Virus record (IMG/VR): IMGVR_UViG_3300009130_000040
Coordinates: 1 to 51,684 of that record
Direction: 5' to 3' (one strand)
Source of the DNA: a virus
Length of the DNA stretch: 51,684 bases
Shown here: positions 2,111-45,408 of the stretch, piece by piece
How the letters are laid out: every line of letters begins with the position of its first letter
Numbering within the stretch: position 1 is the stretch's first letter
Translations under genes and position numbers: made by a program
The notes under the pieces: generated by a model
What the model was told of the DNA's origin: nothing
Seen by the model: the letters and a program-made list of their open reading frames with translations, nothing else
Databases searched by the model: none

Positions 2111-3001
2111 ATGAAGTTAAACAAAACAACCCTACAGAAAATAGTTCAAGAGGAGATTCAAAACATAAGGATCGAATTTGAAAAAGAGCTTAGTGCTAAA
2201 AAGATTAAATTACCCTCTCAAATCAGTGAGGGTAAGAAATCACAGCTTCTAAAAAAAACCGCAGGTGGTATGGCTAAGGCTGTTCAAGCAGTGGGTAAAG
2301 AGTTGGCAAAAGATTTAGATGAACCTAAAGTTAAAAAAATCATGTCGGAATTAGAAAAAGGTTTAAACTTGGGCAAAGACGCAACTGATGAAGAAAGAGT
2401 AAAAGCCTATGCCGACTTGTTTGAAAAACTTAAAAGTGATCAAGAAAAAATAAAAAAACTTAGTTCAAAACAAATCATCAAAGGTGGCAAGAATCTTGTA
2501 GGACTCTTGTCTTCCGGTGGCTTGCTTTTGTCCATAGGAAACATCCTTTTCGGTGGCGGCTTTTTAGCAAGCCTCGGCGTTGGGGGGATTTCAATAGTCT
2601 TGGGTGGTGCTCTTTATTTTTTGTTAGCAAAATTAGAAAAATTATCAAAGTTTATCGATGCTGGACTTGGTGTTGCAGGGTGGGCAACAAAATTTCTACC
2701 TTCAGGGCTAAAAGGTGGGTTCGCCTTTTTAAAATTTTTAGCCACTAAAGTTGCAGATCTATACAACAAAGTGAAATCTGTGGAGGATAAAAAGTCTTTA
2801 CCCTCGGGGCAGGATGACATTCCCTTCGCTGACCCGAAAGACGTTAAGCTCACATCCGGAGACTGGCCGGGTGAATATTTAAAAGAAGGTTATCACCCCT
2901 CTATGCAGTCTCTTATATCAGATAAAGCAACCAGAGATCTTCTTAACGAATATTGGGAAGTTATGTATGAGTTGGAGAAAAAAGAGTTATGGCAGTTTTA
3001 A
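2111..3001 (+). CDS. Tagged protein with a hydrophobic membrane-spanning core
   Basis: 296 aa, ATG at 2111 with AGGA upstream. It begins with the tag (MKLNKTTLQKIVQEEIQNI). A helical, charged region (about residues 30-120) is followed by a strongly hydrophobic Gly/Leu-rich stretch at about 130-180 (containing LLSSGGLLLSIGNILFGGG and GISIVLGGALYFLLA), long enough for two membrane passes, then an amphipathic region and an acidic C terminus. No family was recognised. With the 1044-1784 gene it forms a pair of tagged, membrane-active-looking proteins. I infer a head-internal protein that may insert in the host membrane during ejection. Confidence 0.55.
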   Translation: MKLNKTTLQKIVQEEIQNIRIEFEKELSAKKIKLPSQISEGKKSQLLKKTAGGMAKAVQAVGKELAKDLDEPKVKKIMSELEKGLNLGKDATDEERVKAYADLFEKLKSDQEKIKKLSSKQIIKGGKNLVGLLSSGGLLLSIGNILFGGGFLASLGVGGISIVLGGALYFLLAKLEKLSKFIDAGLGVAGWATKFLPSGLKGGFAFLKFLATKVADLYNKVKSVEDKKSLPSGQDDIPFADPKDVKLTSGDWPGEYLKEGYHPSMQSLISDKATRDLLNEYWEVMYELEKKELWQF

Positions 3002-4718: not shown

Positions 4719-5114
4719 ATGAATGCGACAGAGAAACACATCAGATCTATTATACAAGAGGAGATCCGTAGTTTTTTGTCCGAACAAGCTCCAAAGTCTG
4801 TTGTTAAAGGTCGTGTCAAGAAGTTAAACCAGAAAGTAAAAAAAGATGCTCACACCAAATCCTCAATCCAAGGGGCAATTAGAAGCATCACAACTCATAG
4901 CGGAATTAAAAAAGATTTAGAAAAAATCATGGACAACCCAGTCGCGTCGGCGACCTTCATTACCACTCTCATGACTCAACTTGGTTTGGATCCTGAATCT
5001 TATGTGAGCATCATTTCGACGCTTTCTGAAGTAAAAACTAAGAAGATTAGCGTCATTTTAGAAAATTGTTTCAAAGTCCTTGAAGAATATAACTGCCAAC
5101 AAGATGCTAAATAA
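4719..5114 (+). CDS. Tagged small protein immediately before terminase
   Basis: 131 aa. The N terminus carries a variant of the tag (MNATEKHIRSIIQEEIRSF), including the IQE-E step. The remainder is a mostly helical, Lys-rich domain with two cysteines near the C terminus. It is the last gene before the terminase large subunit, the usual place for the small subunit in many phages, but the tag instead groups it with the prohead-internal candidates. No family was recognised. Confidence 0.5.
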   Translation: MNATEKHIRSIIQEEIRSFLSEQAPKSVVKGRVKKLNQKVKKDAHTKSSIQGAIRSITTHSGIKKDLEKIMDNPVASATFITTLMTQLGLDPESYVSIISTLSEVKTKKISVILENCFKVLEEYNCQQDAK

Positions 5115-10306: not shown

Positions 10307-10412
10307 TAATTGTTATAAAACAAAGAAACGAGTGCTGCGACCAGTTCGCCGCTGTAAATCTGGTTGCAAGCCCGTGCGGGTTGCGCCCGCACTAAGAGGA
10401 AGTAAGGTATGA
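10299..10412 (+). CDS. 37-aa Arg/Lys/Cys-rich microprotein
   Basis: ATG at 10299 with AAGGGGAAA a few bases upstream. It reads MFNNCYKTKKRVLRPVRR, then CKSGCKPVRV and a short tail, and stops at TGA 10410-10412. It overlaps the preceding gene by 8 nt and the next start as ATGA, so it fills an otherwise 102-nt gap exactly. It contains three cysteines and about a dozen basic residues. Such a peptide could bind nucleic acid or scaffold, comparable in position (not sequence) to T4 gp68/67. The good Shine-Dalgarno sequence and coupled overlaps support its reality. Confidence 0.55.
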   Translation: MFNNCYKTKKRVLRPVRRCKSGCKPVRVAPALRGSKV

Positions 10413-10966
10413 AAATTAGTAAAAAACGATTGGAAAAGATAATTTTAGAAGAAATAGATAATTTACACAGCCAAGATCGTAAACTTCACGATGAAGAAGT
10501 TCCAATTGCATCTATAGTGTATTTATTGGTTGGAAAAGCTTTGGATTCTGTACACGATTATCGCGGTTCAATGCCAGACGACCAAGATGTTTCCGAGGAT
10601 TTTGAAGATATACACGAAAAATTGGCTAAATTCTGGACTATGCTAGATAGTCATCCCGATTTGGCAGATGGAGAAACACCGAAAGAGCTTTTAAAGCCAC
10701 TACAAGAAAAGCAAGCCACTCAAGTTGAACAAATCATGCAGGAATTATCGCAACAAATCAAAGAGCAAGAACAAGATTGTACCGAAGAAGAGATCTCTAA
10801 TGCACTCGATGTGGTGTCACGATGCGTAATGACTGGAAAATCTCAAAGACCACGTTCAACCGAAACAGAATTGGGGGTAATGCCACGAAAAGTGAGTGCG
10901 CCGCCTGAAGGAACCAAGGTTGGTGGCGTTAAATGGGTAAAAGAGGGAGAGACAGATGAGCAATAA
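10409..10966 (+). CDS. Tagged acidic protein next to the prohead protease
   Basis: 185 aa. The N terminus is the tag (MKISKKRLEKIILEEIDNL), here with I-L-E-E at the putative cut site. The body is acidic and helical with Gln/Glu runs (EQIMQELSQQIKEQEQD) and ends in a Gly/Pro-containing basic segment. Its stop overlaps the protease start by 11 nt, so it is probably co-translated with the protease. I infer a prohead-core or internal head protein processed by that protease. Confidence 0.55.
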   Translation: MKISKKRLEKIILEEIDNLHSQDRKLHDEEVPIASIVYLLVGKALDSVHDYRGSMPDDQDVSEDFEDIHEKLAKFWTMLDSHPDLADGETPKELLKPLQEKQATQVEQIMQELSQQIKEQEQDCTEEEISNALDVVSRCVMTGKSQRPRSTETELGVMPRKVSAPPEGTKVGGVKWVKEGETDEQ

Positions 10967-12220: not shown

Positions 12221-12622
12221 ATGACATACAATAAAGCCGGTTTAGGGTCTGTTGGCTCTTATCAAGTTTCAGGAAAACCATTTCTTAGTGGAGGCGTTGA
12301 TGTGTCAATTTACACGAGTGGTCCATTGGAAGTCTCCTTTCCATCGATCACAAGATGGATCACTGTAACAAATCACGATACAACAACTGATGGAGATGTA
12401 AAGGTCGCCTTTTCTGCAAACGGATTCGACACAAATAACTATTTTACCGTGAGCCAAGACAAGGGTGATTATACAAATACCATGACACAAAGACTTGAAC
12501 TAAAAGTTACTAGAATGTATCTCACAGGAGCTTGTACAAATTGTGATATTATTGCGGGACTAACAGGAATTAGCACAACTGAAATTACAAATAACTGGTC
12601 CGGATCGTCTGGTGTCGGCTAA
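12221..12622 (+). CDS. Small beta-rich virion protein, decoration-like (paralogue of 44986-45408)
   Basis: 133 aa, ATG preceded by AAAGAGGAATT. It shares with the 44986 gene a conserved N terminus (AGLGSVGSYQVSGKPFLS), a middle block (VSFPSITRWITVTN) and a C terminus (NNWSGSSGVG). The body looks all-beta, alternating Thr/Val/Ser. Adjacent to scaffold and capsid genes and apparently well translated, it is a good candidate for a capsid decoration or fibre-tip-like protein. That role is inferred; only the paralogy is seen directly. Confidence 0.6.
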   Translation: MTYNKAGLGSVGSYQVSGKPFLSGGVDVSIYTSGPLEVSFPSITRWITVTNHDTTTDGDVKVAFSANGFDTNNYFTVSQDKGDYTNTMTQRLELKVTRMYLTGACTNCDIIAGLTGISTTEITNNWSGSSGVG

Positions 12623-31051: not shown

Positions 31052-32254
31052 ATGTTATTTCAAATAATAGATAACAAACAAATTTGTTCGAGTATATATT
31101 CAAACAAACAAATTATTAACGATCCTGATTTTGACTCCCTAACACAAACATGGTCATACAATTCTTCTTTAAAAGATTATGATATTGATTACGCATCTTT
31201 ATATGTTAACGGAAAATCATTGGATCAAAGTTGTCCTGACATTTTAAAAGATAAATGGGAGAAAGTCAAACAAAAACATTTAGCATTTCTTAAAAGCTTT
31301 GAAACTGGAAAAGTTAATTATAATGATTATTGCTTCTATGATCTTGTTCCTGAATCTTTTGTTATGGAATTCTTTGAAGTAAAGTCTCAGATCACAGAAC
31401 ATATTCTCAAGACAAATGAAAAACCAGGGAACTATGATTTCATGGTTGAGCTGTCGGAATTGGTTGATGGCATCTCAAAGAATAAATTAATATTAAATAC
31501 ATCAGGATTAGATGAATCTCTGCATCAATTGCGCACAAGAAAGTTTAAAGAAAAACTTCAGAGGACAAGCCCGTATGTTCAGTACAATGTCTTTGGAACA
31601 ATCACAGGAAGGTTAACTACAAAGAAGGATTCATTCCCAATCCTTACAATGGACAAGAATTATAGAAAGATAATCCAGCCAAAGAATGATTGGTTTATTG
31701 AATTGGATTTTAACGCAGCAGAATTAAGATGCCTCTTGGCATTGAACGGAGTTGATCAGCCAGAGATGGATATCCATGAATGGAATGGAAAAATCTTAAA
31801 CAAATTGTCTGATCATGTAATGGACAGAGATGAAATTAAACGCAAGATCTTTAGTTGGCTTTATGGTCCGCCGAATGTTTCTCTTGGTATCCCTGAAATT
31901 GAGAGGTATTATAGTAAGAAAGGGGTTAAACGTAAATACTGGACGGGAACAGAGATAGTAAACCCTTTCGGTCGCAGGATAAAAGCTGATGAATTCCATT
32001 CTCTAAATGCGATCATCCAAAGCACAACTTCCGACACGTTTTTAAGGCGAGCAATCGCAGTAAATAAAATGTTAAAGAATAGAAAGTCCTTTACAATGGG
32101 GCTGATTCATGATAGTATGGTAATTGATTTTGATCGCAATGACAAAGATTTATTAGAAGATTTAATAAAAGAATTCGGCAATACCGACTTGGGTAAATTT
32201 AAAGTAAATGCCAGCTTGGGAACAAACTTTGGCAATATGAGGAAATTCCGATGA
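31052..32254 (+). CDS. Family-A DNA polymerase, polymerase domain only
   Basis: 400 aa. It replicates DNA. Motifs in order: YNVFGTITGRLTTKKDSFP (GT-TGRL, residues about 179-188); motif A LDFNAAELRCLL with Asp219; motif B R259-x3-K263-x3-F267-x3-YG272 in the O-helix; motif C GLIHDSMVIDF with His353 and Asp354. Motif C has Ser355 where most family members have Glu. The protein has only about 175 residues before the TGRL motif, so there is no room for a 3'-5' exonuclease domain. Phe267 at the O-helix position matches E. coli Pol I. Proofreading, if any, must come from another gene outside the window. Confidence 0.9.
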   Translation: MLFQIIDNKQICSSIYSNKQIINDPDFDSLTQTWSYNSSLKDYDIDYASLYVNGKSLDQSCPDILKDKWEKVKQKHLAFLKSFETGKVNYNDYCFYDLVPESFVMEFFEVKSQITEHILKTNEKPGNYDFMVELSELVDGISKNKLILNTSGLDESLHQLRTRKFKEKLQRTSPYVQYNVFGTITGRLTTKKDSFPILTMDKNYRKIIQPKNDWFIELDFNAAELRCLLALNGVDQPEMDIHEWNGKILNKLSDHVMDRDEIKRKIFSWLYGPPNVSLGIPEIERYYSKKGVKRKYWTGTEIVNPFGRRIKADEFHSLNAIIQSTTSDTFLRRAIAVNKMLKNRKSFTMGLIHDSMVIDFDRNDKDLLEDLIKEFGNTDLGKFKVNASLGTNFGNMRKFR

Positions 32255-34265: not shown

Positions 34266-35390
34266 ATGAGCAACGGAAAATTATCATCATCAGATATCTT
34301 AAAAATGATCAACAAAAAAGCTGGAAGAACGGTTGCCTTTGCAGGAGATCAGGAGAACCCAGCAGATATTAAAGATTGGATCCCAACTGGCTCACGCTGG
34401 CTTGACTCCATTATCTGTCGCGGACAACTGGCTGGCATTCCAGTCGGTCGCTGCACAGAAATTGCAGGTCTTGAAAGTTCTGGTAAATCTTATATGGCGG
34501 GTCAAGTCGCTCGGGAAGGTCAAAAGAAAGGTATTAAAGTATTATATTTTGACTCTGAAGCAACAATGACTAGCGAGTTTTTGGAAAAACTTGGTTGTGA
34601 TATGGAAGGTGATAATCAAATCGTCATCATTCAGCCAGAAGATATCGAAATGGTTCTTGAAACTATGGAAATGTGTATGGCTAACGATCCAGATAATCGT
34701 TATTTATTTATTTTAGATTCTCTGGCTATGACACCATGCCGTGCAGACTTAGAAAAAGATTTCAACCCACAGTCATCAATGGCGCAGATGCCCCGCGTAT
34801 TGTCCATTGGAATGAAGAAGTTAACAGTATCGTTGTCCAAGAGTCAATCTACATTCCTTGTTCTTAATCAATTAAAGACAAATATTAATGTTAGTAATCC
34901 CATGATGATGTTGTCACAACCTTGGTTCACTCCCGGTGGTAAAGCCATCATCTATGCGTACTCATTACGACTATGGTTGACTGGTTTAAAGGGTAAGAAA
35001 ACTTTTATTGAAGATGAGAATGGTTATCGCATAGGTTCAGAGGTTAAAGCCAAGCTAGAGAAGTCAAAGTTCGGAACTCAAGGTCGTATCTGTAACTTTA
35101 AGATCTTGTGGGGTGGAGAAGAAGTGGGTATCATGAATGACGAATCTCTCTTGACAGCCATCAAACCATCTGATAGACTTAAAAATGCAGGAGCGTGGTT
35201 TACTTTGGAAGGTTATGAAAAGAAATTCCAAGCTGCCACATTTCCTAAACTTATGAAAAGTGATCCAAAGTTTTCAAAGATCGTTTATGATATTATGGAC
35301 GAAGAAGTGATTCGCAAGTTTGAAAACAAAACGGGAAAAGCCGAAGACTTTTATGACCTAGAAGAACAAGCTCTAGAACAGGAGAAATAG
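34266..35390 (+). CDS. uvsX: UvsX/RecA-type recombinase
   Basis: 374 aa. It performs ATP-dependent strand exchange for recombination-dependent replication and repair. Walker A is GLESSGKS (residues 68-75), preceded by PTGSRWLDSIICRGQLAGIP, as in UvsX. Walker B is RYLFILDSLAM (about 145-155). The L2-like region includes FLVLNQLKTNINVSNP and the FTPGGKAIIYAYSLRLWL strand. The length is close to T4 UvsX (391 aa). A helicase and exonuclease follow in the same block. Confidence 0.93.
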   Translation: MSNGKLSSSDILKMINKKAGRTVAFAGDQENPADIKDWIPTGSRWLDSIICRGQLAGIPVGRCTEIAGLESSGKSYMAGQVAREGQKKGIKVLYFDSEATMTSEFLEKLGCDMEGDNQIVIIQPEDIEMVLETMEMCMANDPDNRYLFILDSLAMTPCRADLEKDFNPQSSMAQMPRVLSIGMKKLTVSLSKSQSTFLVLNQLKTNINVSNPMMMLSQPWFTPGGKAIIYAYSLRLWLTGLKGKKTFIEDENGYRIGSEVKAKLEKSKFGTQGRICNFKILWGGEEVGIMNDESLLTAIKPSDRLKNAGAWFTLEGYEKKFQAATFPKLMKSDPKFSKIVYDIMDEEVIRKFENKTGKAEDFYDLEEQALEQEK

Positions 35391-36185
35391 ATGAAAAGCG
35401 TTGTTTTGTTTGATATGGATGGCACCATTACGCCTGCTAGACAATCAATTGAAGATAAAATGACCGAGACACTATCTGATCTGCTTAAAGTTTGCGAAGT
35501 TGGCATTGTAACTGGCAGTGGGTTCGAATATGTGATACAGCAGTGTGGATCATTTTTTAATTCTGAACATGACTTTTCGAAGTTAACACTTTTGCCCTGT
35601 AATGGGACACAAAAATATGTACATAGAGATGGCGCTTGGGTCCAAGAGTCCACCCTTAATATGCGAGAGCATTTGGGAGAAGAATTTTTCCGCAAGTTAA
35701 TGTTTATATTGTCGGAACGAATTTATATTACTCACTTGACTAATACGACTGCCAAGTTGCCAATGATGGGTCACTTTATTTCTTATCGAGAATCTTTAAT
35801 TAATTGGTGCCCCATTGGTCGATTAGCTTCGGATGAAGATCGGAAGCGTTTTATTGAGATTGATCAAAAGCGTCAAATTCGTGAAGTAAATATAGGCGTC
35901 CTGGAAAGATCTTCGGTGGCTGGAAAGGTTTGCTTCGCGATGGGAGGAAATACGTCTATCGATATCTACCCCATAGGCTGGGACAAAACATATGCTCTTA
36001 ATCATTATGATAATTATGATCATTGGTTCGTGGGCGATAGGTGTACGTTTCCAACAGGTAATGACAAGCCTCTTTACGATAAAATTAGAGAAACAAAACC
36101 AAACCAAGCGTTTGAAGTCAAGACAACATCAGACACTATAGAAATTATTAAAGATATTATAAACACACTCAACACCGAGGAGTAA
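35391..36185 (+). CDS. Eukaryotic-type phosphomannomutase (HAD family)
   Basis: 264 aa, ATG directly after the UvsX stop. It converts mannose-6-P to mannose-1-P. HAD motif I is VVLFDMDGTITPAR (Asp8 nucleophile, Asp10). The PMM-specific cap and core are clear: GHFISYRESLINWCPIGR (128-144), GGNTSIDIYPIGWDKTYAL (185-203; human PMM has GGQISFDVFPxGWDKRY) and FVGDRCTFPTGNDKPLYD (213-230; PMM FFGDxTxPGGNDxEI). This differs from the usual bacterial ManB/AlgC family. It pairs logically with the PMI cupin at 42477 and the nucleotidyltransferase at 44021. Confidence 0.85.
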   Translation: MKSVVLFDMDGTITPARQSIEDKMTETLSDLLKVCEVGIVTGSGFEYVIQQCGSFFNSEHDFSKLTLLPCNGTQKYVHRDGAWVQESTLNMREHLGEEFFRKLMFILSERIYITHLTNTTAKLPMMGHFISYRESLINWCPIGRLASDEDRKRFIEIDQKRQIREVNIGVLERSSVAGKVCFAMGGNTSIDIYPIGWDKTYALNHYDNYDHWFVGDRCTFPTGNDKPLYDKIRETKPNQAFEVKTTSDTIEIIKDIINTLNTEE

Positions 36186-36187
36186 TA

Positions 36188-37153
36188 ATGAGCAACAAAA
36201 TTTTAATTGTTGATGCAATGAATACGTTCATTCGCAACTATGTAATGAACCCATCGATTGCAGCTGATGGTTCACCGATTGGTGGTACTAAAGGCTTTTT
36301 AATGTCCATGCAGAAAATGATACGTGACATGCAACCAGATAATGTTATCGTCGTCTGGGATGGTGGAGGCGGAAGCGCAAAAAGACGTACTATTGTTAAA
36401 GAATATAAAGAAGGTCGCAAGCCTCTCAAATTAAATCGAGCGTACAAAGGAATGTCGGCACTGGAAGAATCCCAAAACCGTTATGATCAGATGCGCAAGA
36501 CCATTGAATACCTTAATCAAATGCCTGTTGCTCAGTTGATGGTAGAGGACATTGAAGCAGATGATGTAATTGCTTATATCTGTCAAATGCCTTCCTTAAA
36601 AGAAGACGTTAAGATTATTGTGTCCATGGACAAAGACTTTTATCAACTATGTGACGACAAAACAATGATTTATAGTCCAGTAAAAGATGAGTTCTTAAAC
36701 AAGAAAAGGATCATAGAAAAATTTTCAATTCATCCTAACAATTTTTCCCTAGCCCGAGCAATCGATGGCGATAAGTCAGACAACTTGGATGGGATCAAGG
36801 GAGCCGGACTCAAAACAGTTGCCAATAAATTTTCTTTTTTGGCGGAAGAAAAATCCTACACCCTTGATGACTTGTTTAACCATTGCCGACGTGATGAATC
36901 GGGCTTAAAATTATATAAAAATATTTTATCAGAAAAAAATAAAGTGGAGCTGAATTATAAATTAATGCAACTTTATTCTCCCTATATTTCAACTCAAAGT
37001 TCTCAACATATCAAAACTACTGTGGAAAACTTTGAGCCTTCTTTTAACCGGACGGAGGTTCTTAAAATGATGTCCATCGATGGCATTCATGAATTCAATT
37101 GGAACTCCCTATTTCAGAAATTTAGATCGATTGTTGACGCTGCGCGAGACTAA
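36188..37153 (+). CDS. 5'-3' exonuclease / flap nuclease (FEN-like, RNase H role)
   Basis: 321 aa. It removes RNA primers and 5' flaps. Seen: ILIVDAMNTFIRNYVMNP at the N terminus (first acidic ligand), VIVVWDGGGGSAKRR, VEDIEADDVIAY (clustered acids, about residue 118), VSMDKDFYQLCD (about residue 141) and a helix-hairpin-helix-like AIDGDKSDNLDGIKGAGLKT (about 196). All are in the order of the Pol I 5'-nuclease/T4 RNase H family. It may supply the 5'-exonuclease that the short polymerase lacks. Confidence 0.88.
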   Translation: MSNKILIVDAMNTFIRNYVMNPSIAADGSPIGGTKGFLMSMQKMIRDMQPDNVIVVWDGGGGSAKRRTIVKEYKEGRKPLKLNRAYKGMSALEESQNRYDQMRKTIEYLNQMPVAQLMVEDIEADDVIAYICQMPSLKEDVKIIVSMDKDFYQLCDDKTMIYSPVKDEFLNKKRIIEKFSIHPNNFSLARAIDGDKSDNLDGIKGAGLKTVANKFSFLAEEKSYTLDDLFNHCRRDESGLKLYKNILSEKNKVELNYKLMQLYSPYISTQSSQHIKTTVENFEPSFNRTEVLKMMSIDGIHEFNWNSLFQKFRSIVDAARD

Positions 37154-37236
37154 TTACAATGTTCCAAAACAAAGTGCTTGACAAGTCTTTGGGTTTGGGA
37201 TATGATCTAAAACACATCAGACACGACGAGGTTATA

Positions 37237-38613
37237 ATGTCCAATAATGATAAAGTTTCTTTCTCCAAATATGGCAAAACATTTCAAGAAAAACTCGCTT
37301 TTATTATCTTAGATGATCGTGTTTTCGCAGATCGCATGATGGAAGTTTTAAATATTGAATTTCTAGAATATAAGTATCTTCAAGCATTTACGGAAAAAAT
37401 CTTTCAATATAAATCTAAATACGGATCCCAACCTTCACACGATACTATGAAGACTATTATTAAGTCTGGTATTGATGACCTCAACGAAGCCCTTCAGAAA
37501 CAATTACGCGACTATTATGCGCGGGCATTAACTAACATTAACATTCTTGAGTCGTGTGAGTATATTAAAGATACAGCCCTGGATTTTTGTCGCAAACAGA
37601 AGCTACGTGAAGCGATGATGAAGTCCTCTACACTCCTCCAAAAGTGCTCTTTTGATGAGATTTCTGTACTCATTAATAACGCCTTGAAAGCAGGTGCCGA
37701 TGCCGACTTTGGGTATGATTATATCAAAGATTTTGATAAAAGATTTGAATTCTCAGGACGAGAAACCATCACCACGGGCTGGCAACGCATGGACGAGATA
37801 ACAGGTGGCGGCGCGGGTCGCAAAGAACTTGGTGTGGTCATCGCCCCAACCGGTGTCGGTAAGTCAATGGTTCTTGTTCATCTTGGAGCCACCGCAGTCA
37901 AAGCGGGTATGACTGTAGTTCATTACACGCTCGAACTGCGTGACACCGTTATTGCTAATCGTTACGATTCATGCATTACTGGTATTCCTTTGGATGAGTT
38001 AATGGATCGCAAGAGCGAGATCCGGGAAATGATTGACGATTGTGATGGAACGCTTATTGTTAAAGAATATCCTACAAAAACGGCAACCACAAACACAATC
38101 CGAGCACACCTCGAAAAATTAAAACAACAAGACATAACACCCGACATGATCATTGTGGATTACGCTGATTTATTGCGTCCTTTATCATCACGAGATGCTA
38201 AGCGTGAAGAATTGGAATCTATCTACGAAGAACTCCGTGCTATCATGATGGAGAATGATGTAGTTGGTTGGACAGCCTCACAAACAAATCGAACGGGATT
38301 GCAAGCAGAAATTATTACAATGCAGTCAATCTCAGAAGCATTTAACAAGTGCTTTGTTGCAGACCTTATCTTCTCGGTATCAAGAACAACAGAAGATAAA
38401 CAAAAGAATGGCGGAAGAATTTATATTGCGAAAAACAGAAACGGTCAAGACGGTTTAGTCTTCTCTATCTTCATGGACACAGCAAATATTGATATTAAAG
38501 TGTTAGAACGGTATGATCCCGATCAAGCAACCGGTCCAAGCTTATCACAAGAAGAACAACAAAAATTTATGTTAAACAAATATAAGAAACTAATGAAGGG
38601 AGCGACTATGTAA
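37237..38613 (+). CDS. 41: Replicative DNA helicase (gp41/DnaB-type)
   Basis: 458 aa from the ATG at 37237, preceded by GAGG at a good distance. An in-frame ATG at 37159 has no ribosome-binding site and would add 26 residues. It unwinds the fork ahead of the polymerase. N-terminal all-helical domain; Walker A is APTGVGKS (about residues 203-210); then HYTLELRDTVIANRYDSCIT; Walker B MIIVDYADLL; motif QxNR-like TASQTNRTGLQ; then RIYIAKNRNGQDG near the C terminus. Typical T4 gp41/DnaB order. Confidence 0.92.
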   Translation: MSNNDKVSFSKYGKTFQEKLAFIILDDRVFADRMMEVLNIEFLEYKYLQAFTEKIFQYKSKYGSQPSHDTMKTIIKSGIDDLNEALQKQLRDYYARALTNINILESCEYIKDTALDFCRKQKLREAMMKSSTLLQKCSFDEISVLINNALKAGADADFGYDYIKDFDKRFEFSGRETITTGWQRMDEITGGGAGRKELGVVIAPTGVGKSMVLVHLGATAVKAGMTVVHYTLELRDTVIANRYDSCITGIPLDELMDRKSEIREMIDDCDGTLIVKEYPTKTATTNTIRAHLEKLKQQDITPDMIIVDYADLLRPLSSRDAKREELESIYEELRAIMMENDVVGWTASQTNRTGLQAEIITMQSISEAFNKCFVADLIFSVSRTTEDKQKNGGRIYIAKNRNGQDGLVFSIFMDTANIDIKVLERYDPDQATGPSLSQEEQQKFMLNKYKKLMKGATM

Positions 38614-40475
38614 TGGAACTATCAAGTAAAATTCTATCTGATATTACTGTATTTATGAAATATGCCAAATACCGAGAGGATTTGGGAAGAAGGGAAACGT
38701 GGGAAGAATTAGTCACACGTAACAAGGAGATGCACATTAAGAAATTTCCTTTTATGAAAAGAGAAATTGAAGGTGCATACAAATTAGTTTATGATAAGAA
38801 AATATTACCGTCAATGCGCTCGCTACAATTCGGAGGGAAACCTATTGAGATTAGTCCAAACCGTGTTTATAATTGTGGCTTCCTGCCTGTTGATGACTAC
38901 CGAGCTTTTAATGAAATATTATTCCTCCTTTTAGGAGGAACAGGTATAGGATTTTCTGTACAAAAGCATCATGTTGAGAAGTTACCAGAAATTAGACATC
39001 CACGGGCTGATCGAAAGCGGCGATTCCTTATAGGAGATTCCATTGAAGGATGGGCAGATGCAGTTAAAGTGCTGATGCGTTCATATTTTGAGGGGACTTC
39101 TACAATTGAGTTTGATTTTTCAGATATCCGGGCAAAAGGCGCAAAGCTGGTTACGTCAGGTGGTAAAGCTCCTGGTCCCGAACCACTCAAAACTTGTATT
39201 CGTCAGATCAAATCAATCTTAAATGAAAAAGAGGAGGGCTCACAACTTGAACCTATTGAAGTCCATGATGTTGTTTGCCATATTGCTGATGCCGTTCTCG
39301 CTGGTGGGATTCGGCGTGCTGCACTTATTTCACTCTTTTCGGCAGATGATCAAGAAATGATTTCGTGCAAAGCAGGTAAGTGGTGGGAGAAAAATCCTCA
39401 ACGCGCTCGCGCAAATAACAGTGCCGTCCTGGTGCGTCATCGGGTAGAGAAAGATTTCTTTGATGAGGTCTGGGATCGTATCGAACACTCCAATTCAGGC
39501 GAACCTGGGATTTATTTTACCAATGATAAGGATTGGGGGACCAATCCCTGTTGTGAGATCGGTTTGCGCCCCTTTCAGTTTTGTAATTTGTGTGAGGTTA
39601 ACGTAGCTAACGTTGAATCTCAAGAAGATTTAAATGAAAGGGTGCGTTGTGCAGCATTGATTGGCACGCTTCAAGCCTCTTATACGGATTTTCATTACTT
39701 GCGCTCTGTGTGGCAGCGCACAACTGAAAAAGAAGCGTTGCTGGGTGTTGGCTTAACCGGCGTGGGATCAGGACTGGCACAAAAGTTAGACATGAAAGCG
39801 GCATCAAAGATAGCTAAAGAAGAAAATTCTAAAATTGCGGGATTGATTGGTATCAAGGGTGCTGCCCGAGTTACAACTATTAAGCCCAGCGGCACGTCCT
39901 CTATGGTTTTAGGTTGTTCTAGTGGCATTCATGCGTGGCATAATGATTATTATATTCGTCGTATTCGTGTTGGCAAGAACGAGGATATTTATCATTACCT
40001 CTCAATCAATCACCCTGAGTTGGTGGAGGATGAATATTTCAGACCCCATGACACAGCAGTTATCTCGGTTCCACAAAAAGCTCCTCAAGGAGCAATCCTC
40101 CGTCATGAAACAGCGTTGGAATTGTTGGAAAGAGTAAAATGGTTTTCACGAAACTGGATTAAACCAGGTCATAGTCGAGGAAACAATACCCACAATATTT
40201 CTGCAACAGTTTCCATTCAAGAGAGTGAGTGGAAGGCAGTTGGAGAATGGATGTGGGAGAATCGTAAATTCTATAATGGTTTAAGTGTCTTACCATACAG
40301 TGGAGGCACTTACAAGCAAGCACCGTTTGAAGACTGTGACGAGCTTACTTACAAAACAATGATGAACTCCCTGCAAGAGATTGATTTAACAAAAATTGCA
40401 GAAATTGACGACAACACCAACTTAGCAGGCGAGATTGCCTGTGCCGGTGGTGCTTGTGAAATTAAATATATATAA
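38613..40475 (+). CDS. nrdJ: Class II (B12-dependent) ribonucleotide reductase
   Basis: 620 aa, TAATG overlap with the helicase. It makes dNTPs with adenosylcobalamin as radical source, thus independent of oxygen. Key cysteines: C88 (NRVYNCGF), C313 thiyl site (TNPCCEIG), C324 (FCNLCEVNV), and the C-terminal redox pair C610/C615 (CAGGAC near the end), as in monomeric Lactobacillus-type RTPR. Other motifs: GGTGIGFSV, GGIRRAALISL, VTTIKPSGTSSMVLG. It is about 120 residues shorter than the bacterial enzyme (739 aa). Confidence 0.92.
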   Translation: MELSSKILSDITVFMKYAKYREDLGRRETWEELVTRNKEMHIKKFPFMKREIEGAYKLVYDKKILPSMRSLQFGGKPIEISPNRVYNCGFLPVDDYRAFNEILFLLLGGTGIGFSVQKHHVEKLPEIRHPRADRKRRFLIGDSIEGWADAVKVLMRSYFEGTSTIEFDFSDIRAKGAKLVTSGGKAPGPEPLKTCIRQIKSILNEKEEGSQLEPIEVHDVVCHIADAVLAGGIRRAALISLFSADDQEMISCKAGKWWEKNPQRARANNSAVLVRHRVEKDFFDEVWDRIEHSNSGEPGIYFTNDKDWGTNPCCEIGLRPFQFCNLCEVNVANVESQEDLNERVRCAALIGTLQASYTDFHYLRSVWQRTTEKEALLGVGLTGVGSGLAQKLDMKAASKIAKEENSKIAGLIGIKGAARVTTIKPSGTSSMVLGCSSGIHAWHNDYYIRRIRVGKNEDIYHYLSINHPELVEDEYFRPHDTAVISVPQKAPQGAILRHETALELLERVKWFSRNWIKPGHSRGNNTHNISATVSIQESEWKAVGEWMWENRKFYNGLSVLPYSGGTYKQAPFEDCDELTYKTMMNSLQEIDLTKIAEIDDNTNLAGEIACAGGACEIKYI

Positions 40476-40487
40476 AGGAATAAAACA

Positions 40488-40748
40488 ATGGCAACAATTG
40501 CAATCACAGAAGAAAAGAAGAAGCACGTAATCAACTTGATCAAATCTTATCGGGCTATTGATGGAGCCATCCAGCCTTATCAGGATCAACGTAAAGAATT
40601 GCGTACTGAATATATTGAAAACCAATGGCTTACCAATAACGAAATCTCTCTCGTCAAGAAAGCCTATAACGCTGTTAAAACGAAGGTAGATATGGATGAC
40701 CTCTCGTCGTTCATGGATATAGTAAAGAGTGAGATTCCAAATGTGTAA
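40488..40748 (+). CDS. Small helical protein downstream of the reductase
   Basis: 86 aa, preceded by AAAGGAATAA. A single helical domain with TEEKKKHVINLIKSYRAIDG, AIQPYQDQRKELRTEYIENQ, NEISLVKKAYNAVKTKVD. The layout (long helix, loop, helix) is reminiscent of small nucleoid-type helical proteins, but no motif allows an assignment. Confidence 0.5.
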   Translation: MATIAITEEKKKHVINLIKSYRAIDGAIQPYQDQRKELRTEYIENQWLTNNEISLVKKAYNAVKTKVDMDDLSSFMDIVKSEIPNV

Positions 40749-41106
40749 ATTCAAACCGTTTAATAAACACGTGTTGGTCAAAAAAACCGCCGAGAAAAAA
40801 TCTCCAGATTTGAGTCCTGTATTGATACCAGAAGATGCAAAGATGGAAAACAAAGACCGCTATGGTTTGGTTGACTTTGTTTGCGCTTCCAGCGACTGTG
40901 AAGATTTTCTTAAACGACTAAATCCAGAAACCCCCACTTGGGCTACCCAAACGGGAACAATGGATGATGTTTTTACTACGTCCGCGATTGCGAAAGGTCA
41001 TCCTAGTTTAGTGGTGGATCAGCGAATGGTTGAGGAAGTTAAGATTGCGGATCAATTGTTTCATGTAGTCCACCAAAATTATATTGTGGGAATTATTGAC
41101 GAATAG
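40741..41106 (+). CDS. Possible GroES/gp31-like co-chaperonin
   Basis: 121 aa from the ATG at 40741, 8 nt inside the previous gene. A beta-rich protein beginning KFKPFNKHVLVKKTAEKK (GroES: xxRPLxDRVxVKxxExE), then PVLIPEDAK, KDRYGLVDFV (GroES: GxVxAVG) and a C-terminal HVVHQNYIVGIIDE (GroES: ESDILAIVE-like). T4 gp31 is similarly divergent and required for capsid folding. The match is only in pattern, so low-moderate confidence. Confidence 0.4.
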   Translation: MCKFKPFNKHVLVKKTAEKKSPDLSPVLIPEDAKMENKDRYGLVDFVCASSDCEDFLKRLNPETPTWATQTGTMDDVFTTSAIAKGHPSLVVDQRMVEEVKIADQLFHVVHQNYIVGIIDE

Positions 41107-41115
41107 GAAAAAGGT

Positions 41116-41808
41116 ATGAAAATAAAAGATATTAAAGTAATGGTAAGAGAGGCTATGGATGAGAGACAAGTGTTATTGTCTCGACCAGGCTTTATTAAAG
41201 AAGCAAATTACGGTCGTGTAAAGCAGAGAATTGAACAGGATAAAATCCCATTTGCAATGCTTACTGCTTTCCGTGGTGATTATAATAACGAGGAAAATTC
41301 TTCCCGCAATGCAGAATTAAAAATGTCTCTGGATACAGCCGGTTTCCCTTATACCCAAATGCCTGGAAGTGGTTATAAAGAGGGAGGTCCAACCGGCGAT
41401 GTTGTCGTGGAAGATTCCCTTATTGTGTGGGATGAATTGAGAGATGACAAATATCCTACTTCAGAGGAGTTGTTCAATCTTGCAAAAGATTTAGCACAAG
41501 AATTTGAACAGGATTCCTTTATTTATGGTGGTCCGCGTATGGGGAAAGAAGACAACCCCTATGCAATCCACCTTTATACTAATGAGGGTGAGATTATTGA
41601 TGAAATTTGGGCTGGTGGTGAAGAAGGATATGAGGAATTATTTGTAGTTGATGACGCTGCCGAATATTGGAGTAAAATCGCCGGTCGTAAAACTCAATTT
41701 AAAGAAATTTACGACAAATGGAATAATGCCAAATCATCTTCTCGTTTGGAGGCTATGAAAAAGCAATATTATTTAAATCTAGCTGAAAGCAAGATGAAAA
41801 ATGGTTAA
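41116..41808 (+). CDS. DUF3293-like protein
   Basis: 230 aa. The domain pattern is FAMLTAFRGDYNNEENSSRN, AELKMSLDTAGFPYTQMPGS, then VEDSLIVWDEL and LAQEFEQDSFIYGG. This 'xAFRxxxxxxxNxxRNxxLxxxLxxxGxxxxxxxGxxx...E.SxxV......FxQxSxxYG' arrangement matches what I recall of DUF3293. Function unknown. The N terminus MKIKDIKVMVREAMDER is weakly similar to the tag of the head-module genes (V-R-E instead of I-Q-E). A nucleic-acid-metabolism neighbourhood. Confidence 0.5.
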   Translation: MKIKDIKVMVREAMDERQVLLSRPGFIKEANYGRVKQRIEQDKIPFAMLTAFRGDYNNEENSSRNAELKMSLDTAGFPYTQMPGSGYKEGGPTGDVVVEDSLIVWDELRDDKYPTSEELFNLAKDLAQEFEQDSFIYGGPRMGKEDNPYAIHLYTNEGEIIDEIWAGGEEGYEELFVVDDAAEYWSKIAGRKTQFKEIYDKWNNAKSSSRLEAMKKQYYLNLAESKMKNG

Positions 41809-42496
41809 GTCAGTTAAGCTCTACGGCGATGACATTGGAAAAGTTGAGTATGTGGAACATATGGGCTCTGACTTGTCTGTTGTCAATTCTGCTCGTGTTT
41901 CTTTTGGGAAGCACAAAAAAGTAATTGAAGAAGCTGATAAGAAACTAATCAATTACCTCATTAAGCACCGACACACTTCCACGTTAGAACATTGTGTTGT
42001 AACTTTTAGGTTTAAAGTGCCCTTGTTTGTGCGCTCTCAACACCATCGTCATCGAACATGGAGTTATAATGAGATCAGTCGGAGATATACAGATTTTAAC
42101 ATAGAATTATATAATCCCAAGTGGTATAGAACGCAGCATGATTCAAACCGACAGGCGAGCAATCAAAATGAGCACGTAGATGGATCCTCAGCTCACCCAA
42201 TTTTAGGGTGTAATGTGACTGAAGCGGTAAGAAGATTTCATAATCTCTCACTTACGATGTATAATAACTTATTGGAAGTGGGAGTCTGTAGAGAGCAGGC
42301 ACGAGGAATTTTGCCGCAATCAATGTATACCGAATACTATGGAACCGCAAATTTAAATAATATTTTAAAGTTTATAGATTTACGGATTCATGAAGGTGCT
42401 CAAGGCGAAATCCAAGAAGTGGCAAAAGCCGTTCTTAAGATAACAAAAGGCTTATACCCACTTACAGTAGGGGCATATGAGAAAGCGAAAAAATAG
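41801..42496 (+). CDS. thyX: Flavin-dependent thymidylate synthase ThyX
   Basis: 231 aa, overlapping the previous gene by 8 nt. It makes dTMP from dUMP with FAD and methylene-THF. The ThyX signature is complete: RHRTWSYNEISRRY (residues 83-96, RHRxxSxNExSxRY). It also has HTSTLEHCVVTFRFKVP (about 58-74) and REQARGILPQSMYTE (about 165). Together with the class II reductase it makes dNTP supply independent of the host's enzymes. Confidence 0.95.
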   Translation: MVKSVKLYGDDIGKVEYVEHMGSDLSVVNSARVSFGKHKKVIEEADKKLINYLIKHRHTSTLEHCVVTFRFKVPLFVRSQHHRHRTWSYNEISRRYTDFNIELYNPKWYRTQHDSNRQASNQNEHVDGSSAHPILGCNVTEAVRRFHNLSLTMYNNLLEVGVCREQARGILPQSMYTEYYGTANLNNILKFIDLRIHEGAQGEIQEVAKAVLKITKGLYPLTVGAYEKAKK

Positions 42497-42830
42497 CGAA
42501 GAAAGACCATGGGGCTCGTATGAGGTTTTGGCTGATAGAAAGCAATACAGATTAAAAGAAATAATTGTAAAGCCCGGTCAACGCTTGAGTTATCAATCAC
42601 ACCACAGGCGCACGGAAATCTGGGCAATCGTTCAAGGTGAAGGTGTCGTAACTTTGGAAGGTCAAGAGCTAGAGTGTTATCCCGGTCGTTCTTTTTTTAT
42701 CCCAAAAGAACAGCGCCACAGGATTGAGTGTACTGGCAAAAAATCATTAATTTTTGTTGAAGTGCAAACAGGCGATTATTTTGGAGAAGACGATATTACC
42801 CGCTATGAGGATGATTATGGAAGACAATAG
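42477..42830 (+). CDS. Mannose-6-phosphate isomerase-type cupin
   Basis: 117 aa, overlapping ThyX by 20 nt. The sequence is close to the C-terminal cupin of type II PMI/ManC proteins: RPWGSYEVL (10-18), LKEIIVKPGQRLSYQSHH (26-43), EIWAIVQGEGVVTL (47-60), FFIPKEQRHRIEC (73-85), VEVQTGDYFGEDDITRYEDD (94-113). It interconverts fructose-6-P and mannose-6-P; candidate metal ligands are His42/His43, Glu47 and His81. In bacteria the domain is often fused to a GDP-mannose pyrophosphorylase; here it stands alone. Confidence 0.88.
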   Translation: MRKRKNSEERPWGSYEVLADRKQYRLKEIIVKPGQRLSYQSHHRRTEIWAIVQGEGVVTLEGQELECYPGRSFFIPKEQRHRIECTGKKSLIFVEVQTGDYFGEDDITRYEDDYGRQ

Positions 42831-43113
42831 TTTATTTATTTTTATGAAGGTTTGTGAAGACTTTGTTAAGTCAAGTTTAGAATTAAGAAATGCGGCAGCG
42901 TTATGTGATGATGACCCCATCAAGCAGGAGATGATATCCTTTGTAACGCCTGAATTTAATAAAATGTGGGCTAAGAGCGAAGGCATTAAGGTTTTGTTAG
43001 AAAAAGAACACTTTGCCGAGAACCGGGAATTTATTTTATCTGAAATGCGCGATGTCACCCTTCAAAATCGTAAAATTGCGGCAAAAATAAAAGATAAGTT
43101 AGGTTCCCTTTAG
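42817..43113 (+). CDS. Small helical hypothetical protein
   Basis: 98 aa from the ATG at 42817 (GAGG 7 nt upstream; in-frame ATGs further up at 42811 and 42754 lack a better site). It overlaps the cupin gene by 14 nt. Entirely helical: FIFMKVCEDFVKSSLELRNA, DDDPIKQEMISFVTPEFNKM, KVLLEKEHFAENREFILSEM. No family recognised. Compact, coupled arrangement suggests a real small gene. Confidence 0.5.
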   Translation: MEDNSLFIFMKVCEDFVKSSLELRNAAALCDDDPIKQEMISFVTPEFNKMWAKSEGIKVLLEKEHFAENREFILSEMRDVTLQNRKIAAKIKDKLGSL

Positions 43114-43187
43114 TGACTTTGGGCGAGAAGCTTTTAATAGCTCTCATTGTATGGACTGTTGCGTGTGAATTCATTATCAAAGATTGA
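43113..43187 (+). CDS. 24-aa single-TM microprotein (candidate)
   Basis: A GTG at 43113 overlaps the previous TAG stop (TAGTG) and opens a 24-codon ORF, MTLGEKLLIALIVWTVACEF then IIKD, ending TGA 43185-43187. The body is one transmembrane helix. It overlaps the start of the next gene in another frame and fills the gap between the two. AGG lies about 10 nt upstream. Small, so chance cannot be excluded. Confidence 0.3.
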   Translation: MTLGEKLLIALIVWTVACEFIIKD

Positions 43188-44058
43188 ACTCCATTCCAAA
43201 ATACGAGACATCAATTTTGAATATGATGAATTGGTAATTGGCTCCTCTCTAGAGGCTCTAACCTATTGCACATTAAATAATCTTCCATGTGTTGCGTGTC
43301 GCTTGACCCCTCCTCAACATTTTGAAATTCATGATTTAGATTTAAATTTTTTTGGTCTAAAGTCCTCTAACACCTCCTCGCTCTGGCTGTGGGAAAGATT
43401 ATACTTTTACCTATCTATTGCTGGACTCATTCCATTAGGGGAGAAACCAGTCTCGCTTAGAATAAGTGATAGCGTTGTTAAAGCGAGTACATCCAAAGCG
43501 CGAATGGCAAAGATAAAATTTAATAAGTTAACAGTATTTGATGACTTTGGAGTTTCTGGCTTAGGAATCCCCACAGAAAACAAGGCAGCAAAATATAAAG
43601 TATATGACTGGTTTGATGTTCGGAGTGGAATGAAGCATGACTTCAACAAACTCTCCAGTGATGAGGATTTCATTAAGACAATACTGTTTTACAAGACATT
43701 GCGTCTTGACGGTGATCATGAATTTAAAGATGCCGTATCTATATCCCACCTCACCCAACAAGAGTTGGAAGAATTTGAGTATTCGGATATCAACGCCCGA
43801 TTTAAAACCTTATATATGATGAAAGAAGCTGGAATCCGAGGCGCTCGCAATGGTCGAGACATGAATGATAAGACAAAATATAAATATTATGCTGTCAAGA
43901 TTGAAAACACCGCCCGTGAAATCATTCCACCTAAACCAATTTATGAACCCTTTGACAATATTGATTTTAATTATAGCTCCCTAAATGATATAATAACCCA
44001 TAACCCTCTGAAGTCTTCTTATGTCCGAAACCTTATCCAGCGAGCACTTAACGATTGA
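43165..44058 (+). CDS. Rossmann-like hypothetical protein
   Basis: 297 aa from the GTG at 43165; a TTG at 43147 is also in frame and no start has a good ribosome-binding site. Residues about 18-40 (FEYDELVIGSSLEALTYCTL) form a strand-GxSxxA-helix element as in nucleotide- or FAD-binding proteins. The remainder is mixed, with YKYYAVKIENTAREIIPPKP near the C terminus. It lies between the cupin block and the nucleotidyltransferase-like gene and overlaps the latter by 38 nt, suggesting a linked role in sugar-nucleotide chemistry, unproven. Confidence 0.45.
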   Translation: MNSLSKIELHSKIRDINFEYDELVIGSSLEALTYCTLNNLPCVACRLTPPQHFEIHDLDLNFFGLKSSNTSSLWLWERLYFYLSIAGLIPLGEKPVSLRISDSVVKASTSKARMAKIKFNKLTVFDDFGVSGLGIPTENKAAKYKVYDWFDVRSGMKHDFNKLSSDEDFIKTILFYKTLRLDGDHEFKDAVSISHLTQQELEEFEYSDINARFKTLYMMKEAGIRGARNGRDMNDKTKYKYYAVKIENTAREIIPPKPIYEPFDNIDFNYSSLNDIITHNPLKSSYVRNLIQRALND

Positions 44059-44989
44059 TTCATTCCATTTAGCTGGAATTATACCTGTGGCAGGACAGCC
44101 GCTAGACTTTGAATTCCCATGGCACGACTCCATGGTCCCCATTTCCAACAATTACTTAGCCATTGAAAGAACGGTGTTGGAGTGTGCTACTGCGGGTTGT
44201 GAAACTATTTGGATTGTTTGCCCCTCAGCCATGCAGCCTCTCTTAAAGCACCGCTTAGGTGAGATGGTTCAAGATCCTGTGTGGATCAGCCGCAAGCACG
44301 ATGTTTTTCCATCGGAGTCTCGTAAAGACATTCCCATTTATTATGTCGAAGTTCACCCGCGAGATCAATCACGCAGAGATTCGATGGTGTGGAGCATTTT
44401 ATATGGCGCAAAAGTTGCTAAAAAGGTGTGTAATGGTTTAAGCCAGTGGCTGGTCCCGGACAAATATTACGTGGCTTTTCCTTATGCAGTCTATCCCTCA
44501 CAACACTTGAGAAGATACAGGAAAGAGATTTCAAACACGGGCAATTTTTACGTCTTAACAGCCGAAGGAGAGTCAGTGTTGGATGGGGAGTATGCGGGAT
44601 TCGCCTTTGAAGCCAAACAGTTGGGTAAATTGATTAAGTATTTTTGGGATAAACAAACGGGAAAATGGGACACATCGCAACCCATCGACGAACGTCGCGA
44701 TGGCAAATACGTAACAAAACTTCTCCCACTAGAGGAGAGATATTCAGGAAGATTTTTTAATGTAGCAGAAATATTTAATCAATTGGATGATTCTGAAAAA
44801 ACATTTAAAATTGAGATGGAATGGTATTATGATATTAGCTCATGGGAAAATTTATGTAAATATCTTGCTTCAGAAGAAAGCAAAAAGATGCTAAAACCTA
44901 AATTACCGTTCCTCACAAATCGTACTTGGAATAAAATTGGTGAAGATGATGAGCAAACTATTTATAATAAAGAGGAGTTATCAGATTGA
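44021..44989 (+). CDS. Nucleotidyltransferase-like protein (candidate sugar-nucleotide synthesis)
   Basis: 322 aa. The N-terminal part follows the order of NTP-transferase domains: LAGIIPVAGQPLDF (in place of LAGGxGTRLxPLT), FPWHDSMVPISNNYLAIERT (in place of PKxxxPVxxKPxIE) and LECATAGCETIWIVCPSAMQ. Further on are PDKYYVAFPYAVYPSQHLRR (a GxD-like strand region) and NIxxLxxY-like C-terminal elements. The catalytic loop is altered, so activity is uncertain. With phosphomannomutase and PMI cupin in the same region it would complete a GDP-mannose-type route. Confidence 0.5.
   Translation: MSETLSSEHLTIDSFHLAGIIPVAGQPLDFEFPWHDSMVPISNNYLAIERTVLECATAGCETIWIVCPSAMQPLLKHRLGEMVQDPVWISRKHDVFPSESRKDIPIYYVEVHPRDQSRRDSMVWSILYGAKVAKKVCNGLSQWLVPDKYYVAFPYAVYPSQHLRRYRKEISNTGNFYVLTAEGESVLDGEYAGFAFEAKQLGKLIKYFWDKQTGKWDTSQPIDERRDGKYVTKLLPLEERYSGRFFNVAEIFNQLDDSEKTFKIEMEWYYDISSWENLCKYLASEESKKMLKPKLPFLTNRTWNKIGEDDEQTIYNKEELSD
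44958..44965 (+). promoter_or_regulatory. CTATTTA element inside the end of the transferase gene
   Basis: CTATTTAT, followed by AATAAAGAGGAG, precedes the TTG start at 44986. It lies within the coding end of the upstream gene. It could switch the decoration-like gene to late expression, unlike its metabolic neighbours. Confidence 0.4.
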
Positions 44990-45408
44990 CAACAAAGTAT
45001 TTTGATTATAGGGCGGGATTGGGTAATGTTGGTTCATATCAATCAAGCGCCCGCCCATTTTTATCAGCTTCAATTAACATTCCAAGCGACAATTCTGTTA
45101 TTTCAATAAGCTTCCCCAATGTAACACGATTTGTTACTATAAAAAATCAAGGTGCCGACAGTGTGAGTGAAGTTGAGATGAGAGTGGGTTTTGCGGAAAA
45201 TGGTGTAAACGGCACTGTGCAAAATAACTATTTATTGCTCAACAATCAAGAGTCATTTTCCGCAGACTGGCGAGTTCGCCAATTATATATAAGAGTTGAT
45301 CCTGTCGGTGGCTCCACAAACGCAACAGCTTCGGTTATTGCAGGATTAACAACAATTGATGGTATGGAGCTGTCGCATAATTGGACAGGCTCCGCAGGAG
45401 TAGGATAG
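44986..45408 (+). CDS. Small beta-rich virion protein (paralogue of 12221-12622)
   Basis: 140 aa from a TTG at 44986, overlapping the upstream stop (TTGA) with GAGGAG close by. It shares N-terminal AGLGNVGSYQSSARPFLSA, middle ISFPNVTRFVTIKN and C-terminal HNWTGSAGVG with the 12221 gene. The centre is diverged but keeps a beta-rich, Ser/Thr/Asn-rich composition. A second virion decoration or fibre-associated protein with different specificity is likely. Confidence 0.6.
   Translation: MTTKYFDYRAGLGNVGSYQSSARPFLSASINIPSDNSVISISFPNVTRFVTIKNQGADSVSEVEMRVGFAENGVNGTVQNNYLLLNNQESFSADWRVRQLYIRVDPVGGSTNATASVIAGLTTIDGMELSHNWTGSAGVG

Follow-up and report, generated by a model that had tools for sequence, protein, structure and literature searches.

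The virus record IMGVR_UViG_3300009130_000040 (51,684 nucleotides; the whole of this 51.7-kb fragment is referred to as the window) derives from a marine T4-like phage and carries a eukaryotic-family phosphomannomutase (PMM) gene and a free-standing type II mannose-6-phosphate isomerase gene within its replication operon. A first-pass annotation had read these two genes, together with a nucleotidyltransferase-like gene at 44021, as a phage-encoded route toward GDP-mannose, and all three open reading frames (ORFs) are present and intact. On balance, we favor a reading in which PMM and isomerase are auxiliary sugar enzymes that raise mannose-1-phosphate, with host ManC and further phage enzymes acting downstream and the 44021 protein standing outside the pathway. 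The genes concerned are the following:

35391-36185, + strand: eukaryotic-family (HAD-IIB) phosphomannomutase, 264 aa (PF03332; PMM2 structures)
42477-42830, + strand: free-standing type II mannose-6-phosphate isomerase cupin, 117 aa (PF01050)
43147-44058, + strand: protein with a predicted flavoprotein (PHBH-like) fold, without GxGxxG (AlphaFold2 model, Foldseek)
44021-44989, + strand: replication-operon protein with a predicted, degenerate RmlA-like fold, 322 aa (AlphaFold2 model, Foldseek)

The phosphomannomutase and the isomerase

The protein encoded at 35391-36185 matches the PMM family PF03332 over positions 24-258 (2e-34, 119.7 bits, cut-off 22.4) and human PMM2 structures at 9e-35. Judged by its sequence, it is a bona fide eukaryotic-family phosphomannomutase, as had been proposed. 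Nor is it peculiar to this phage, since a profile built from five copies recovered relatives in at least 85 IMG/VR viral contigs. An earlier impression that the PMM had no viral relatives came from a scan with the single window sequence as query and was overturned by this profile; the empty scan was a sensitivity artefact of the single query. Across an alignment of the best 80 of the 85 viral relatives, all 80 copies are identical at D8 (the nucleophile), D10 (the acid/base), R17, R133, N138, R144 and R151, as well as at G186, S189, D191, W197, D198, K199, D216 and the GND loop. This invariance of catalytic and substrate-site residues points to strong selection on the active site. With eukaryotic PMM2 and PMM1, the viral proteins share the full-length family match, the catalytic Asp pair and the mannose- and phosphate-binding Arg, Ser and Asp; in contrast, they are distant copies with insertions and with PCNGT(Q) in place of the PENG of PMM2, and their activity is a predicted one.

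Among 14 control prokaryotes, the PMM family was matched in one, Lactococcus. The only bacterial protein among the matches listed from the genome scan belongs to Agreia (27% identity) and lies barely above the PMM cut-off (24.3 versus 22.4 bits). In isolated phages, distant PMM relatives are annotated as "hypothetical protein", and a literature search turned up no paper on a phage-encoded phosphomannomutase. Phage isomerases and GDP-fucose genes were already known, whereas a eukaryotic-family PMM so common among viruses did not turn up in the literature searched.

The viral PMM has at least two genomic homes, namely the junction of recA and an exonuclease gene, or the vicinity of a nucleotidyltransferase gene resembling RfaE domain II, often with PhoH. 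PMM is an accessory gene, because the related locus L005 has recA directly beside the exonuclease gene, with no PMM between them. Separately, a class II aldolase-like gene lies beside or near the viral PMM at nine loci (L092, L115, L135, L140, L141, L144, L145), hinting at another sugar-phosphate route.

The 42477 protein was identified as an isomerase-type cupin by its match to PF01050 (6e-33, 113.9 bits, cut-off 23.6), in line with the first-pass annotation. Its alignment to the TIGR01479 model of the bifunctional GMP_PMI/ManC enzyme (467 positions) covers 359-467. Since only these last 109 positions are covered, the phage protein corresponds to the C-terminal isomerase half alone and has no guanylyltransferase domain; no separate one was found in the close relatives searched (PF00483, PF12804). 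The motif SYQSHHRR (SxQxH...R) contains the S, Q, H and R residues described as essential in PMC9602691, and other phage copies of the cupin are 36-48% identical to that of the window. The marine cyanophage S-SCSM1 likewise has a free-standing type II isomerase, in a genome that also encodes a GDP-mannose 4,6-dehydratase (GMD) and a GDP-fucose synthase (PMC9602691). S-SCSM1 and its relatives thus resemble the window phage in carrying a free-standing PF01050 cupin; in contrast, phosphomannomutase is unmentioned in that paper, while isomerase and PMM co-occur here.

Going by family membership and catalytic residues, the cupin would interconvert fructose-6-phosphate and mannose-6-phosphate, and the PMM would convert mannose-6-phosphate to mannose-1-phosphate, so that this portion of the proposed route is upheld at the level of sequence. 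A different use of the same two enzymes would be to tune central carbon flow through fructose-6-phosphate, glucose phosphates and sugar bisphosphates, unrelated to GDP-mannose. Such a role is one reading offered for the S-SCSM1 isomerase (PMC9602691), the family member 4bnd is an alpha-phosphoglucomutase named for glucose phosphates, and both phage genes are located among genes of nucleotide metabolism. However, the viral PMMs match PMM2/PMM1 far better than alpha-phosphoglucomutase (150 versus 60 bits) and GMD genes recur in PMM-bearing viruses, and we judge a central-carbon role improbable.

The 44021 protein, its partner and the replicative polymerase

The protein encoded at 44021-44989 has 27 viral relatives and matched nothing in Pfam, PHROGs or NCBIfam, nor any PDB entry by sequence. 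Its 23-member family was equally without a match in Pfam, PHROGs and PDB, and PHROG scans with the families of both 44021 and its neighbor 43147 gave no usable match. An AlphaFold2 model based on the 23-member alignment (predicted local distance difference test (pLDDT) score 79) was placed by Foldseek on RmlA (1lvw) with an E-value of 3.9e-8, a probability of 1.00, a template modelling (TM) score of 0.47-0.51 and 12% identity. According to this model, the protein is a GT-A-like Rossmann protein of the sugar-nucleotidyltransferase (RmlA) fold, and its structural neighbors comprise RmlA, UGPase and IspD folds as well as viral sugar nucleotidyltransferases. The Foldseek placement makes the earlier guess at the shape of 44021 a good one; the designation "nucleotidyltransferase-like" holds at the level of the fold, but not at that of hidden Markov model (HMM) matches or motifs.

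More specifically, the RmlA/UGPase family (PF00483) has a GxGTR...K loop and metal-binding aspartates, which 44021 lacks. Placing the catalytic positions by motif order and predicted strands, without superposition, we found that the nucleotide-binding loop (VAGQPLDFEFPWHD) does not contain the GxG(T/S)R...K signature and has no conserved K or R across the 23 members. The first metal site reads YVAFPY in the window and YVxFPY in the family, with no acidic residue in any of the 23, and at the second metal position D271 gives way to N, K, E or R in some members. By comparison, nucleotidyltransferases of other PMM-bearing viruses (L156, L157, L174) retain G-x-G-(T/S)-R. Comparison of the family profile with Escherichia coli RfbA, GalF and ManC yielded nothing significant, the best being GalF (P 0.009, probability 4.5%), where IIPVAG aligned to VIPVAG.

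The gene also does not track the two sugar enzymes in its distribution. Across the 17 records with 44021 homologues, PMM is present in 5 and the cupin in 8, and the family is also conserved in phages having neither. (The records compared here and below are fragments, and homologue counts ignore kinship except for the 60% clusters of PMM loci.) Its constant neighbors lie elsewhere: at every locus with room, the gene is found downstream of a 43147 homologue (23/23, mostly adjacent; in L009 two small ORFs intervene) and upstream of the gene for the DNA polymerase III alpha subunit, DnaE (24/24, within about 260 bp at 15 of them). In the window itself, judged from the colinear relative G002, the polymerase gene would start just past the end of the record.

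Could 44021 nevertheless be a divergent mannose-1-phosphate guanylyltransferase, so that the window alone encodes the full GDP-mannose route? The predicted fold and the viral sugar nucleotidyltransferases among its structural neighbors would fit, and the close relatives searched yielded no other guanylyltransferase. However, the signature and metal residues are missing throughout the family, no HMM or significant profile match links it to any pyrophosphorylase, it occurs in phages without PMM and isomerase, and it is strictly linked to DnaE and the flavoprotein-fold gene. The 44021 protein is thus probably not the missing enzyme, and we consider a window-encoded full route highly improbable. 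Because 44021 lacks the motifs, also occurs where PMM and isomerase are missing and is tied to DnaE, the proposal of phage-encoded GDP-mannose synthesis is incomplete: the route is supported as far as mannose-1-phosphate, but not through its last step.

The AlphaFold2 model of the 43147 protein (pLDDT 84.5) resembles flavin monooxygenases (Foldseek 2e-6, TM about 0.4), predicting a flavoprotein-like fold from which the GxGxxG motif for flavin adenine dinucleotide (FAD) is absent; for both proteins, the fold calls come from predicted models with TM-scores near 0.5 or below. The two genes form a replication-operon pair, whose products would be core proteins of that operon and, as modelled, are probably repurposed enzyme folds, in the case of 44021 that of a nucleotidyltransferase. 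What such a pair does alongside the replicative polymerase is a functional question brought out by fold prediction.

The guanylyl step and the probable use of GDP-mannose

With 44021 set aside, the guanylyl step is probably performed by host ManC, which is the simplest answer. Host ManC (mannose-1-phosphate guanylyltransferase) would convert mannose-1-phosphate to GDP-mannose, and the phage would thereby boost flux into the host pool. PF00483 was absent from 17 fragmentary records (the window and 16 relatives), and PF12804 from the window and G002; G002 carries both PMM and cupin with no mannose-1-phosphate guanylyltransferase recognisable by either family. Among 45 PMM-bearing viral contigs of at least 40 kb, matches above cut-off were found to PF01467 in 37, PF01050 in 22, gmd in 14, PF00483 in only 2 and PF12804 in 1, and most of these contigs have no recognisable guanylyltransferase. 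Weaker-scoring PF00483 matches in L157, L173 and L174 have nucleotidyltransferase-like starts, and a few such viruses may therefore encode the guanylyl step. The recurrence of viral PMM with GMD, without a recognisable guanylyltransferase, would mean either that hosts always supply ManC or that a phage enzyme has escaped recognition.

The frequency of PF01467 raises another route, unlike that of ManC, in which a phage nucleotidylyltransferase of the HldE-C/RfaE-domain-II type activates the sugar to a nucleoside diphosphate (NDP)-mannose or NDP-heptose. At 33 of 79 loci (20 of 39 PMM clusters), PMM has an RfaE-II-like gene within 6 kb; such a gene stands directly 5' of a PMM-like gene in Acinetobacter phage Ab1-TPeters and is present in G002 at 152.8-153.2 kb. 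In NCBIfam, the RfaE-II-like protein best matches an adenylyltransferase that acts on a manno-configured heptose-1-phosphate. On the other hand, the scores of 54-70 bits fall far under the equivalog cut-off of 181.5, and a phosphoheptose isomerase-like gene in G002 suits an ordinary ADP-heptose role. PF01467 also turned up in 3 of the 5 phages without PMM that were tested, a sample that gives no proper background rate, and the association with PMM may therefore be general. We regard this route as unlikely, though as the likeliest of the alternatives. A bolder combination is more doubtful still: a large, unnoticed clade of marine viruses would have its own eukaryotic-type PMM, whose product a phage nucleotidylyltransferase of the RfaE-II type, and not ManC, would activate, while, separately, 43147 and 44021 would be a retired flavoenzyme fold and a retired sugar-nucleotidyltransferase fold that now serve as replication factors or as a new DNA-base-modifying pair.

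For supply by host ManC, the sink of the sugar is best seen in G002. The first-pass annotation had suggested looking for a glycosyltransferase in the rest of the genome; the window stops short of the relevant region, but its colinear relative has several, together with GMD and an Fcl-like reductase. The G002 GDP-mannose 4,6-dehydratase scores 469.7 bits against an equivalog cut-off of 415. Between 127 and 148 kb, G002 also encodes a GDP-fucose-synthase (Fcl)-like reductase, RfbH and an AroB-related phospholyase (both above cut-off), a fusion of a CMP-sugar synthetase-like domain with a cupin, the phosphoheptose isomerase-like protein and the glycosyltransferases. We consider these genes a likely GDP-mannose sink in this close relative. 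In the fuller genomes of the lineage, phage GMD, the GDP-fucose-synthase-like reductase and glycosyltransferases would draw on the GDP-mannose pool, and the products would most probably end up on the host envelope or on the virion. The glycan cluster as a whole (G002:126945-147576; L048, L049) comprises about 20 genes, including a class III aminotransferase, and further contains a sialyltransferase-like GT29 match and two transketolase-like halves. It falls outside the stretch matched by the window. A gmd gene is also present in G005, where the cupin occurs without PMM.

A different destination would be the phage DNA, as for arabinose in phage RB69. There, candidate UDP-arabinose genes sit between those of DNA polymerase and UvsX (PMC6024577), and the window PMM, in another T4-like phage, similarly has the recA/UvsX gene of the replication operon as its neighbor; in addition, ORF053c of RB69 is a weak structural neighbor of 44021. 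The enzymes and the sugar differ, however, and there is no sign of DNA glycosylation here. The examined part of the window showed no recognisable hydroxymethylase or other enzyme of base modification, and in the relative the glycosyltransferase genes belong to a late cluster alongside enzymes of envelope type. We hold transfer to DNA to be highly improbable, the least probable of the readings considered.

Several points weigh against supply of mannose-1-phosphate to host ManC. Host ManC is an assumption. The missing motifs speak against an unusual activity of the 44021 protein, though it may still have one. Glucose phosphates or bisphosphates can also serve as substrates for enzymes of the PMM family. 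The presumed partners are found apart as well: the isomerase occurs without PMM in L005, L007 and L008, and a gmd-like gene (347 bits, under the cut-off of 415) is found in G013, which lacks both PMM and isomerase. Furthermore, as the window is a 51.7-kb fragment, the GMD cluster and the glycosyltransferases are visible in relatives only.

Genomic setting and other features of the window

The window terminase shares 46% identity with that of Flavobacterium phages immuto and 45% with that of Microcystis phage Mel-JY01. The window is colinear with 32.6-82 kb of the 156-kb relative G002 (IMGVR_UViG_3300012953_000014), with 49 matching ORFs. The operon runs in the order RecA, PMM, 5'-3' exonuclease, DnaB, class II ribonucleotide reductase, Cpn10-like protein, ThyX and cupin, so that the genes at 35391, 42477 and 44021 are scattered among recA and the genes for the exonuclease, DnaB, ribonucleotide reductase and ThyX and do not form a contiguous cluster. 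The neighboring genes are:

34266-35390, + strand: RecA/UvsX-like recombinase (PF00154, 113 bits), upstream neighbor of PMM
36188-37153, + strand: 5'-3' exonuclease (FEN) (PF02739, 99.9 bits), downstream neighbor of PMM
37159-38613, + strand: DnaB-like helicase (PF03796, 66.6 bits)
38613-40475, + strand: B12-dependent (class II) ribonucleotide reductase (PF02867 and PF21995)
41801-42496, + strand: ThyX thymidylate synthase (PF02511, 157.7 bits), whose 3' end runs into the beginning of the isomerase gene

Within the same region, 41116-41808 weakly resembles S-adenosylmethionine lyase (PF23780, 26.5 bits, below the cut-off of 28), which is a known anti-restriction activity in other phages. Judging from 31052-32254, upstream of recA, and from DnaE in relatives (L007:10975-14367), phages of this group seem to have a replicative polymerase of family C and, beside it, a shortened polymerase domain of family A.

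Five otherwise unrelated window proteins (129-1040, 1044-1784, 2111-3001, 4719-5114 and 10409-10966) begin with a common leading peptide, MK(L/I)xxxxLxxII(Q/K)EE(I/L), which likewise heads many ORFs of L042-L050. By analogy with T4, this peptide may target proteins to the capsid and be cleaved off by the prohead protease. Finally, 12221-12622 in the head region and 44986-45408 beside the replication operon encode paralogues of about 135 aa with the pattern GLGxVGSYQ...NWxGSxGVG, which are possibly capsid decoration proteins.

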